From assembly GCA_030430625.1 (NCBI GenBank), contig JAUIKL010000001.1, forward strand, positions 1 to 64,000: a stretch of 64,000 bases of DNA, written 5' to 3'. The stretch is from Gemmatimonadota bacterium. Its GTDB lineage: Bacteria > Gemmatimonadota > Gemmatimonadetes > Longimicrobiales > Gaopeijiaceae. Made by a program: the position numbers and the translations under genes. The notes below the pieces were generated by a model. That model was not told where the DNA came from and did no database searches. It was given only the letters and a program-made list of their open reading frames with translations. Below, piece after piece: positions 28,981-32,944 of the stretch. How positions within the stretch are numbered: position 1 is the first letter of the stretch; each line of letters opens with the position of its first letter.

Positions 28981-28986
28981 TATAAT
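28981..28986 (+). promoter_or_regulatory. Perfect TATAAT -10 element at the start of the AMP-ligase gene
   Basis: A consensus TATAAT occupies 28981-28986; a potential ATG start (28985) lies inside it. A weak -35 (TCGATC, 28958-28963) sits 17 bp upstream. Transcription would begin near 28993, right at the in-frame GTG 28994, which suggests a leaderless message. Confidence 0.5.
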
Positions 28987-28993
28987 GGGCACC

Positions 28994-30610
28994 GTGAACG
29001 ATGCTGCTGCTGATGCCCGAGCACTCTCGGAGTGCGTGGCTGGATTGACCGTCGCCTCGGCCCTCTCGACACGAGCGACGACGGACCCCGAGCGCCCGTA
29101 CCTCCGGACTGACGACCGTGTGTACGCGTACGGGGAGGTCGAGGCCCAAGCCGAGGCGCTCGCCGCGGGCCTGGCGGGACTGGGCGTCGAGGCCGGTGAC
29201 CGGATCGCGCTCGTGCTCCCCGCCTGTCCCGAGTTCGCCGTTTCGATGTTCGCGGCGGCCAAGCTCGGCGCCATCGTCGTGCCGCTCAACCCGCACCTGG
29301 CACCGCTCGAACTCCACTATATGATGCGTCACTCGCAGGCGGTCGCGGCGGTGACGATCGAGCAGGACCGGGACGTCGATTTCCTCCAGCTCTTCGAGGA
29401 GATCATGCCCCAGCTGCCCGAGCTGAAGCACCTGGTGACCGTCGGGGAAGAGGACCTCTGGTACGACGACCGGATCTTCCAGTTCGAAGATCTGTTGTCT
29501 GCGGGGGACGGGCGGGACTTCGAGGCACGCGCGGCGGATCCCGACGACTGCTTCGCGCTGGTGTACACCTCCGGCACGAGTGGGAAGCCGAAGGGGGTCG
29601 AACTCAGCCACGCCAATCTCCTCTCCACGGCTGCGGGCACGGCGGAGGCGATTCGCCTCGGGCCGGACGACATCGTCGTCGGGATCTCCGGGCTCTTCCA
29701 CGTCTACGGTCTCGGCCCGGGACTCCTCGGAACGCTCGCTGCCGGAGCGTCTTTCGTCGTCCTGAATCACGGGGATCCGGCCACCATTCTCGACGCCGCC
29801 GAACGACATGGAGCCACGGTCCACTACGGCATCCCGACGCTCTTCGTCGGAGAGGTGGCCCAGATGCGGCGGCGGCCGCGCGATCTCTCGTCGCTTCGGA
29901 TCGCCGTCGTGGCCGGGGCACCCGCGGATGACACGCTACTGGCCTCGGTCTCGGAGGGATTGGGGACGACGGTCGTCTCCGGGTACTCCGTGACCGAGAC
30001 GGCGTCCACGGTCAGCACCACCGTACCGGGGGACAGCCCCGAGGAGCGTCGGTTCACGGTCGGCCGTCCCCTTCCCGGGACATCGGTGCGCATCGTCGAG
30101 TCGACCGAGGACGGAGACGTCGAGCTACCGGTCGAGAGTGTGGGCGAGATTCGGGTGCGCGGACCCGGTGTCATGCTCGGCTACTACAGGCAGCCCAGGA
30201 AGACGGCCGACTCCTTCGACTCGGAAGGGTATTTCCGTACGGGGGACCTCGGCATTCTCGACGAGGATGGCTTCCTCCATTTGGTCGGCCGTAACCGCGA
30301 CGTTATCATCAGGTCCGGCTTCAACGTGTATCCGCGGGAGGTCGAGTCTCGTGTCGAGGCTCATCCAGCGGTGCGAGAGGCGGCGGCGATCGGCTTGGCC
30401 GATCCGCTCCTCGGAGAAGCCATTTGCGCCTGCGTCGTCCTCGTAGAGGGTGCGATCGTCACGGGGCAGGAAATCGTGGACTGGTGTCGCGACACGCTCG
30501 CGGACGAGAAGGTCCCCGATTTCATCCGCTTCGTCGACGACCTTCCCCGAACGAACACGGGGCATGTGCGACGGGTCGAGCTCTCCCGCAGCGTCTTGTC
30601 GGAGATGTAA
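28994..30610 (+). CDS. AMP-forming acyl-CoA ligase-like protein lacking the A10 lysine
   Basis: An ANL-superfamily protein of 538 residues from GTG 28994 (541 from ATG 28985). It has the P-loop YTSGTSGKPKGVELSH, GYSVTETAS (A5), YFRTGDLG (A7) and the hinge GRNRDVIIRSGFNVYPREVE (A8), so both the large and small domains are present and full length. The A10 motif, normally PxTxxGKxxR, reads LPRTNTGHVRRVEL: the lysine needed for adenylation is histidine (CAT codon). Acetyl-CoA synthetase in this window keeps the lysine. It may act only in a thioester half-reaction, use another base, or be regulatory. The substrate is unknown. The start is chosen because ATG 28985 overlaps a perfect -10 element. 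Confidence 0.85.
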   Translation: MNDAAADARALSECVAGLTVASALSTRATTDPERPYLRTDDRVYAYGEVEAQAEALAAGLAGLGVEAGDRIALVLPACPEFAVSMFAAAKLGAIVVPLNPHLAPLELHYMMRHSQAVAAVTIEQDRDVDFLQLFEEIMPQLPELKHLVTVGEEDLWYDDRIFQFEDLLSAGDGRDFEARAADPDDCFALVYTSGTSGKPKGVELSHANLLSTAAGTAEAIRLGPDDIVVGISGLFHVYGLGPGLLGTLAAGASFVVLNHGDPATILDAAERHGATVHYGIPTLFVGEVAQMRRRPRDLSSLRIAVVAGAPADDTLLASVSEGLGTTVVSGYSVTETASTVSTTVPGDSPEERRFTVGRPLPGTSVRIVESTEDGDVELPVESVGEIRVRGPGVMLGYYRQPRKTADSFDSEGYFRTGDLGILDEDGFLHLVGRNRDVIIRSGFNVYPREVESRVEAHPAVREAAAIGLADPLLGEAICACVVLVEGAIVTGQEIVDWCRDTLADEKVPDFIRFVDDLPRTNTGHVRRVELSRSVLSEM

Positions 30611-30736: not shown

Positions 30737-32944
30737 ATGAATGTGCCGTACACGCGGGCCCCGCATCAGTCGGGCCCCGGCGCCGCGAACCTCGATGCGA
30801 CGCACGCCGCCCTCCTCATCGACTTCGACAACGTCACGATGGGGATGCGCAGCGACCTCTCGAAGGAGCTCAAGAGCCTCCTCGACACCGACGTCATCAA
30901 GGGCAAGGTCAGCGTCCAGCGGGCCTACGCCGACTGGCGCCGGTACCCCCAGTACATCGTGCCCCTCTCGGAGGCGTCGGTCGATCTGATCTTCGCCCCC
31001 GCCTACGGGAGCAACAAGAAGAACGCCACCGACATCCGGATGGCGATCGACGCCCTCGAACTGGTCTTCATCCGACCGGAGATCGGGACCTACATCCTCC
31101 TCACCGGAGACTCCGACTTCTCGAGCCTGGTTCTGAAGCTCAAGGAGTACGGCAAGTACGTCATCGGGGTGGGGATCCAGGAGTCGAGTTCGGACATCCT
31201 CGTGCAGAACTGCGACGAGTACTACTCCTACACCAGCCTCACCGGTCTCACCAAGACGACCGAGATGGACCGCGACGCACGCGACCCCTGGGTGCTCGTG
31301 AAGGAAGCCATCAACAAGATGGTCCAGCGCGGAGACGTCATGCGCTCGGACCGGCTGAAGCAGGTCATGCAGGAGATCGACCCCACCTTCGACGAGGGTT
31401 CGATCGGCTTCTCGAAGTTCTCCAAGTTCCTGACCGAGGCGTCCTCCCGCGGCCTGATCCGTCTGAAGAAGATGGAGAACGGCCAGTACGAGGTGGAGCC
31501 GGGGAAGGGACGCGGCCGTGGCGACGACAGGAAGAAGAGTGACGACGGTCGTGGGCGTGGCGGATCCCGTTCGCGCGGCGGTCGGTCTCGCGGCGGGCGC
31601 GGCCGGGACGAAGGCCGAAGGGACGAGGGCGCGACCGATGCGTCCGACGCCTCGTCCGAGGAGGCCGGAGATGCCGACTCGAGCGGAGATCCGATGGCGA
31701 CCGCGTACGCCGCCATCCGCACGGCGCTCGAGCGGCTCAGGGAGTCCGGGCGCGACCCGGTCCGCGATTCCGACCTGAAGCGGAAGATGCTGGACGCCGA
31801 TCGAAACTTCGACGAGGGCACCCTCGGCTTCCCGAAGTTCAGCAAGTTCCTGGAGCAGGCCGAGGCGGACGGCGTCGTCACCCTTCACCGGGAGGGCCGG
31901 ATCATCGAGGTCTCGCTCGGCTCGGGCGAGGCCAGCGAGCCCTCCGTTTCGACGGACACCGACCGCGACACGAGTCGATCGAGGGACGAGGGGCGGCGGG
32001 CTTCGTCACCGAAGTCCGACCGATCCGAGACTGGCTCCGCACAGGCCGAAGCTACACCGTCCGCAGACGAGGACGGCGACAGCACGAAGGGCCCGGACGG
32101 GCCCTCCGACGGCAAGGCCACGACGATCGAGGTGGAACCGCCGAAGCGGGGACTCTTCGGCCTCCGGCTCGGCCCACGTCGAGGCGCGACGCGACGTCGC
32201 GGTGGAGACGTCGGGTCGTTGTTCGGCTTCGGGAGTGCGTCGGACGAGAAGAACGACGCATCGGACGGGTCCGAGGACGAGGCCGGGACTTCACACGGCA
32301 CCGGGGTCGCGGCGGCCGAACTGGCTGCGCTGGAAGCGGCCGAGGCGGCCGCTGCGGAAGCCGAACTCGAGGATCTGCGGATCGATGAAGAGGCCGTCGA
32401 CTACGGTGACGGAGACGACGACGGGGACGACGAAGTCAGTGCCTCCGACGGACGGAGTGGAGGCAGGACCGACCAGCGAAGCTCGAGAAGCGATCGTTCG
32501 AAGCGCGGCTCCGGCAGGCGGGACTCGGGGAGCCGTGGCTCCGGTAGTCGGGATTCCGGCGCCCGTGACGCCTCCGGGAGTGACAGCGGTCAGGGCGACG
32601 GTCAGAAGCGTGAGAGTCAGAAGCGTGACAGTCAGAAGGGTGACAGCCGCCCCCCCTCGACCGGGGCCGTGCCGGACGTTCCCCTCGATCAGCTCGGCCT
32701 GCCCTCGGACCCCGGCGCCATCGCGCGCTACCTGACGCACCGGTACAAGGGGGTCGGGGAGAAGACCGCCGAGACGCTGGTCGAGAAGCTCGGATCGGGG
32801 CTCTTCACCACGCTGCACGAGCGTCCCGACGAGATCTCTTCGATCGTGCCGCCCAAGCGCGCAGAGCAGGTGCTCGAGGCCTGGCGCAGCGACTACGAGC
32901 GTCGGGCCACGGCACACGCGGAGCGGTCGGCCAAGAAGGGCTAA
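30737..32944 (+). CDS. NYN (LabA-like) nuclease with two OST-HTH/LOTUS domains and a C-terminal HhH
   Basis: A 735-residue protein with an unusual layout. Residues 23-175 are a NYN/PIN-like nuclease domain with acidic residues in LLIDFDNV (Asp29, Asp31), NATDIRMAIDAL (Asp99) and LLTGDSDFSSLV (Asp125, Asp127). Residues about 183-255 and 319-393 are two OST-HTH/LOTUS domains sharing FDEGxxGFxKFSKFL. Between them lies an Arg-Gly-rich linker (257-300). Residues 395-645 are low-complexity, acidic then Ser/Arg-rich with QKR/GDS repeats. The last 85 residues contain a helix-hairpin-helix (YKGVGEKTAETLVEKLGSG). Inferred role: RNA-directed nuclease. ATG 30737 is used; an earlier ATG at 30638 is less family-like. 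mpg follows after 15 nt. Confidence 0.85.
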   Translation: MNVPYTRAPHQSGPGAANLDATHAALLIDFDNVTMGMRSDLSKELKSLLDTDVIKGKVSVQRAYADWRRYPQYIVPLSEASVDLIFAPAYGSNKKNATDIRMAIDALELVFIRPEIGTYILLTGDSDFSSLVLKLKEYGKYVIGVGIQESSSDILVQNCDEYYSYTSLTGLTKTTEMDRDARDPWVLVKEAINKMVQRGDVMRSDRLKQVMQEIDPTFDEGSIGFSKFSKFLTEASSRGLIRLKKMENGQYEVEPGKGRGRGDDRKKSDDGRGRGGSRSRGGRSRGGRGRDEGRRDEGATDASDASSEEAGDADSSGDPMATAYAAIRTALERLRESGRDPVRDSDLKRKMLDADRNFDEGTLGFPKFSKFLEQAEADGVVTLHREGRIIEVSLGSGEASEPSVSTDTDRDTSRSRDEGRRASSPKSDRSETGSAQAEATPSADEDGDSTKGPDGPSDGKATTIEVEPPKRGLFGLRLGPRRGATRRRGGDVGSLFGFGSASDEKNDASDGSEDEAGTSHGTGVAAAELAALEAAEAAAAEAELEDLRIDEEAVDYGDGDDDGDDEVSASDGRSGGRTDQRSSRSDRSKRGSGRRDSGSRGSGSRDSGARDASGSDSGQGDGQKRESQKRDSQKGDSRPPSTGAVPDVPLDQLGLPSDPGAIARYLTHRYKGVGEKTAETLVEKLGSGLFTTLHERPDEISSIVPPKRAEQVLEAWRSDYERRATAHAERSAKKG

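Follow-up and report, generated by a model that had tools for sequence, protein, structure and literature searches.

The window analysed here is a stretch of 64,000 nt from a Gemmatimonadota genome (contig JAUIKL010000001.1, forward strand, positions 1 to 64,000). The gene under study runs from an ATG at 30737 to a TAA at 32942-32944 and encodes a product of 735 aa, in which an NYN domain is followed by two LOTUS (OST-HTH) domains and by a C-terminal helix-hairpin-helix (HhH). The features of the locus are the following, with residues numbered along this protein.

28985..30610, + strand: AMP-binding ligase, the upstream neighbour, conserved in the window's clade
30737..32944, + strand: gene of the NYN-LOTUS-LOTUS-HhH protein, 735 aa, coordinates including the stop codon; the start MxxPYxRAPH is conserved
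30800..31246, + strand: NYN domain (LabA/DUF88-type, PIN-like nuclease), residues 22-170; Pfam, AlphaFold2, Foldseek, invariant Asp
31277..31504, + strand: LOTUS1 (OST-HTH), residues 181-256; Pfam, AlphaFold2, TDRD7 LOTUS match
31505..31687, + strand: linker 1, RG/GR-rich, basic-acidic and disordered, residues 257-317; composition, low pLDDT
31691..31921, + strand: LOTUS2 (OST-HTH), residues 319-395; Pfam, profile comparison, AlphaFold2
31925..32683, + strand: linker 2, low-complexity Ser/Asp/Glu/Arg, residues 397-649; composition, AlphaFold2
32684..32911, + strand: C-terminal HhH domain with a GVGEKTAExLV motif, residues 650-725; NCBIfam, Pfam (weak), pLDDT
32960..33625, + strand: mpg, methylpurine (3-methyladenine) DNA glycosylase; Pfam Pur_DNA_glyco, E 5e-59

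LOTUS1 contains a near-invariant DVMRSDRLKQV helix and a GFxKFxxFL motif, and linker 2 a hydrophobic-basic patch (residues 471-500) and a predicted helix (residues 527-551). The gap between the stop codon and the ATG of mpg is 15 nt, exactly as the original prediction had it.

Domain composition and predicted folds

All the parts of the protein that had been named in the original prediction are present, beyond chance. When the full protein was scanned with Pfam, NYN matched residues 24-164 (E 7e-24) and OST-HTH matched two stretches (E 3e-8), all above the cut-off, with a weak match of HHH_5 (E 0.014). The motif FDEGxxGFxKFSKFL is repeated with about 140 residues between the copies, and a comparison of the LOTUS1 and LOTUS2 profiles gave a probability of 99.6% at 38% identity, so that the proposed duplication of the OST-HTH domain holds. 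The predicted HhH was recovered by NCBIfam at residues 655-723 as the HhH part of the N-terminal region of RecD2 (E 4e-6), and it also shows a weak similarity to the XPF HhH; the SF1B helicase that follows the HhH in RecD2 was not found by NCBIfam in the window protein, which differs from RecD2 in having the HhH part only.

The full protein was modelled with AlphaFold2 on an alignment of 61 close homologues. In this first model the pLDDT was 92-96 for LOTUS1, 96-98 for LOTUS2 and 94-98 for the HhH, with a winged helix predicted twice, at LOTUS1 and at LOTUS2; the OST-HTH fold, whose absence from either repeat would have told against the prediction, was thus modelled in both. NYN was modelled with poor confidence, the probable cause being too uniform an alignment, as the NYN domain is nearly invariant among those homologues. 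In a second model, limited to residues 1-260 and with distant NYN-LOTUS proteins added to the alignment, the NYN core reached a pLDDT of 83-94. Residues 260-315 and most linker residues had a pLDDT <50.

The best Foldseek match of the NYN model was VPA0982 of Vibrio parahaemolyticus (2qip; E 1e-8, prob 1.00), and the NYN domains of mouse and human MARF1 (5yaa, 6fdl) matched with prob 1.00, E ~1e-6 to 1e-5 and a TM of 0.76-0.81 when normalised by target. The LOTUS models matched the TDRD7 LOTUS structures 3rco/2lh9 with prob 1.00, at a whole-chain E of only ~0.03.

Active site and predicted activity

The catalytic residues D358/D426/D452 of MARF1 correspond to D14/D92/D115 of VPA0982 (PMC11346440). 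By alignment with 2qip, in which an inferred offset of 3 between chain index and residue number was allowed for, D92 and D115 map to D99 and D125 of the window protein; D14 is matched to D29 by location, where the first strand ends. All three residues, together with D31, N32, K95, D105 and D127, are invariant in the 61 close homologues and also in 26 sequences with an identity down to 21%. The LabA-like NYN domain with its acidic residues is therefore borne out by profile, by fold and by conservation.

In MARF1 and in a CRISPR-associated NYN protein the homologous acidic residues are required for RNase activity (PMC11346440), and DNE1, which combines NYN with two LOTUS domains, is an mRNA endonuclease (PMC10226599). 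According to PMC10226599, which cites Ding et al. 2020, the LOTUS domains of MARF1 bind G-rich/G4 RNA. Because of the fold, the invariant catalytic residues and the activity of these three proteins (PMC10226599, PMC11346440), we infer that the window gene probably encodes a bacterial metal-dependent endoribonuclease of the MARF1/DNE1 kind, acting on structured or G-rich RNA. Precisely, D29, D99 and D125 would hold the metal ions with which NYN cuts RNA; structured or G-rich RNA would be recruited by the two winged-helix LOTUS domains and the RG/basic linker; the C-terminal HhH or, in other families, a basic tail may give a further, non-specific grip on nucleic acid; and the protein would act throughout Gemmatimonadetes as a standing (housekeeping) factor of RNA processing or decay alongside RNase E/G and RNase Y.

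LabA-type NYN proteins first became known as regulators. A LabA-like protein that binds RNA or protein through its NYN fold without cutting, in post-transcriptional or output regulation, would fit that precedent and a clade whose substrate is not known; binding alone, however, would not require the eight invariant residues listed above, and we consider such a regulator very unlikely.

Distribution and conservation

The class Gemmatimonadetes consists of soil and water bacteria. The nearest 80 loci in GTDB genomes were all in Gemmatimonadota records except one (JAHEKL010000027.1), titled as a Gammaproteobacteria bacterium yet carrying the whole Gemmatimonadota gene neighbourhood, which is likely a mislabelled record or a contaminated bin. 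We then considered a sample of 150 genomes spread over the phylum, 144 of the class and 6 of the outgroup class. The NYN-LOTUS1 core was found in 140/150 genomes at 67-92% identity, i.e. in 140 of the 144 class members and in none of the 6 outgroup genomes; the 10 genomes lacking it are all the outgroup ones and four class members. In one of these four class members (G107) the gene may be just missing from the assembly, because mpg sits 474 bases from the contig end. Another genome, G125, apparently has the gene split between two distant places of its contig C1 (L085/L086); a true split gene was rejected, since both pieces abut runs of N and duplicate the same stretch, as in an assembly artefact.

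The identity of the core was compared with that of its neighbours in the 45 loci holding all the genes, with the window as reference. Its median was 81%, vs 51-68% for aroB, the AMP ligase, mpg, nhaC, etfB and etfA. Near-universality in the class, this conservation and a stable neighbourhood of housekeeping genes were counted in favour of the endoribonuclease reading.

Outside the phylum the best relatives on plasmids, from Caballeronia, are ~35% identical. A direct search gave no close relatives on viral contigs, and a broad profile gave only NYN proteins that share 21-27% identity with the core of the window protein, so that a mobile or viral origin was rejected; a defence system was rejected as well, given the stable synteny and the lack of any PADLOC match to a known anti-phage system. 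The proteins found with the broad profile are encoded by nine viral or prophage contigs (L126-L134); several of them seem to carry an OST-HTH-like part at the C-terminus, and it is possible that phages use this nuclease type.

In the outgroup class (f9; L119-L121, e.g. L120:2587-3894, + strand) we observed another type of NYN protein, which scores strongly, is 409-436 aa long, is extended at the N-terminus and has no LOTUS.

Variation of the architecture among homologues

In the window's clade NYN, LOTUS1, LOTUS2 and HhH are present in 70/70 complete homologues, and seven further ones are without HhH because the contig ends there. Families f2, f3 and f7 likewise carry the HhH. It is absent from f4 and f5, whose proteins end in a basic, often K/A-rich tail; we take f5 to be the Gemmatimonadaceae and genome G019 to be Gemmatimonas aurantiaca T-27. 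LOTUS2 of the Gemmatimonadaceae has lost the GFxKF motif and is still recognised by profile comparison (98.6% probability), and LOTUS2 is missing in G047. In our reading, selection holds the nuclease and LOTUS1, plus a nucleic-acid-binding C-terminus of changeable type.

The low-complexity RG/Ser-Arg/acidic stretch of the original prediction corresponds to the two linkers, with their low pLDDT. Linker 1 has no hydrophobic residues and 15 RG/GR dipeptides against ~7 expected from its composition, a count reached by 0/500 shuffles. This excess was counted in favour of a protein working mainly as a scaffold, in which condensates of RNA and protein would be assembled by RG/acidic disorder and by the multivalent LOTUS and HhH, like the C-terminal tail of RNase E, which according to abstracts organises the BR-bodies of alphaproteobacteria; the abstract of PMC8331183 likewise reports germ granules to be promoted by LOTUS proteins that have disordered parts. 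A clear RG box is however present in only ~45% of the homologues, and the nuclease, not the linkers, is the most conserved part. Moreover, linker 2 varies from 4 to ~330 aa, which weakens a fixed scaffold: it is only 4-10 aa long in L043, L058 and L074, in which the whole protein is down to 443 aa, and the long disordered region is therefore not fixed in the design. Condensate formation is possible but unsupported, and a mainly scaffolding protein seems distinctly improbable to us.

Pairing with mpg

We considered as informative the related loci with room for a next gene. There, mpg follows directly, on the same strand, in 77/87 (56/64 in the window's clade and 21/23 in other families), so that the adjacency, the conservation of which the original prediction had proposed to check, is kept across families and the pairing is ancient. 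The other neighbours behave differently: the AMP ligase accompanies the gene in 69/76 loci of the window's clade vs 9/33 in other families, and the AMP ligase, aroB, nhaC and the etf genes are conserved mainly in that clade.

HhH domains are mostly DNA-binding, and mpg, the sole genomic link common to the class, points to DNA; both were counted against the endoribonuclease reading. They keep alive its main rival, a structure-specific nuclease working with MPG in DNA repair or in the processing of R-loops, whose HhH and basic tails would bind DNA while NYN would cut flaps, hybrids or abasic-site intermediates. The RecD2-like and weakly XPF-like HhH, the place of NYN in the 5'-nuclease/PIN superfamily (PMC2848206) and the outgroup class f9, which lacks both NYN-LOTUS and a detectable MPG, are consistent with such a role. 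The gene is nonetheless kept in two essentially complete Gemmatimonadaceae genomes (G129, G004) in which MPG is not detectable, and therefore does not depend on MPG; in addition, the HhH is absent in Gemmatimonadaceae, and the NYN-LOTUS proteins characterised so far act on RNA. On balance we regard the repair role as unlikely.

Relation to the main RNases

RNase E/G was found in 25/26 genomes tested and RNase Y, above the cut-off, in 24/26, so that there is no vacant decay function for the NYN-LOTUS protein, which was counted against the endoribonuclease reading, and a stand-in for a missing main RNase was rejected. In one 95% complete class member (G097, family f8) neither NYN-LOTUS nor RNase E/G was matched and RNase Y gave only a trace, which reflects either a reduced RNA-decay set or an assembly gap.

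The RNase E/G open frames of 25 genomes of the phylum are short (513-652 aa, e.g. G000:C222:1666-2484) and hence without a long C-terminal scaffold tail. This favours the scaffold described above, as RNase E/G itself has little space for such a tail, though the room left for another protein is only circumstantial. A broader role, which we hold to be rather improbable, would join several of these elements: a class-defining core RNase whose added HhH or basic tail would link the cutting of RNA to DNA, e.g. on structured or R-loop RNA of the chromosome beside alkylation damage handled by MPG, and which would organise RNA decay where RNase E/G has no scaffold tail.

Comparison with known systems

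The pairing of NYN with OST-HTH, given in the original prediction as a known one of the MARF1 type, was indeed described in bacteria in 2010, and the NYN fold matches that of MARF1. NYN with one or two OST-HTH domains is the stereotypic arrangement in bacteria (Anantharaman, Zhang and Aravind 2010, PMC2848206), in which an N-terminal NYN/DUF88 (LK-nuclease) precedes the OST-HTH domains in a predicted standalone RNase. The window protein shows what defines that family, i.e. the NYN/DUF88 fold, the catalytic Asp and two OST-HTH domains with the Ghxph insert motif (GFxKF). It differs in the C-terminal HhH and the long charged linkers, which are not described in the parts of PMC2848206 covered; in its conserved gene neighbourhood, whereas no linkage to known RNA-processing systems is given there; and in being near-universal in one class, whereas the family is sporadic there. 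The layout had also been called uncommon. This does not stand for NYN with two LOTUS domains, a type already known from PMC2848206 and DNE1, and it does stand for the added HhH, which is apparently lineage-specific in the literature and searches covered.

Among eukaryotic proteins, Arabidopsis DNE1 (PMC10226599) has the same order, NYN followed by two LOTUS domains, and is an endoribonuclease of mRNA decay, but it comes from a plant and is connected with decapping and NMD, through partners that have no bacterial counterpart, and no HhH is reported for it. Human and mouse MARF1 (Limkain b1) share the NYN fold, the catalytic Asp and the presence of several LOTUS domains; unlike the window protein, they have RRM domains and more LOTUS domains, with a NYN identity of only ~15-17%. 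RRM domains, which would mark an orthologue, were not found in the Pfam scan of the full protein, and the likeness to MARF1 may be taken only as one in the way of working. VPA0982, the best structural match, has the NYN/DUF88 domain in a short single-domain protein without LOTUS or HhH.

The core domain order is also found in a human gut contig labelled as phage, a label that is unverified (MT836735; L084, 3-887, NYN-LOTUS-LOTUS, 28% identical to the window protein and probably bacterial or prophage), and in Caballeronia plasmids (L082, NYN-LOTUS, the LOTUS being read from the alignment and not scored by Pfam). At 28-38% identity, these differ in having no HhH and other neighbours.

In the literature searched we found no biochemical characterisation of the Gemmatimonadota family, which was counted against the endoribonuclease reading, and no function assigned to any bacterial NYN-LOTUS protein, although these were predicted in 2010. 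Nor did it describe that an HhH is added, that C-terminal modules are exchanged between families, that nearly all of a class has the protein, that the gene is paired with mpg or that the NYN-LOTUS1 core is more conserved than six neighbour proteins. The window gene is thus ordinary in its core and noteworthy in its conservation. Since nearly every genome of the class has it, with a conservation above that of the adjacent genes and in fixed surroundings, and since cultured species are among its carriers, the ancestral LOTUS/NYN role is directly testable here: the family is the bacterial counterpart to MARF1, DNE1 and the germ-granule proteins, and makes bacterial LOTUS biology tractable.
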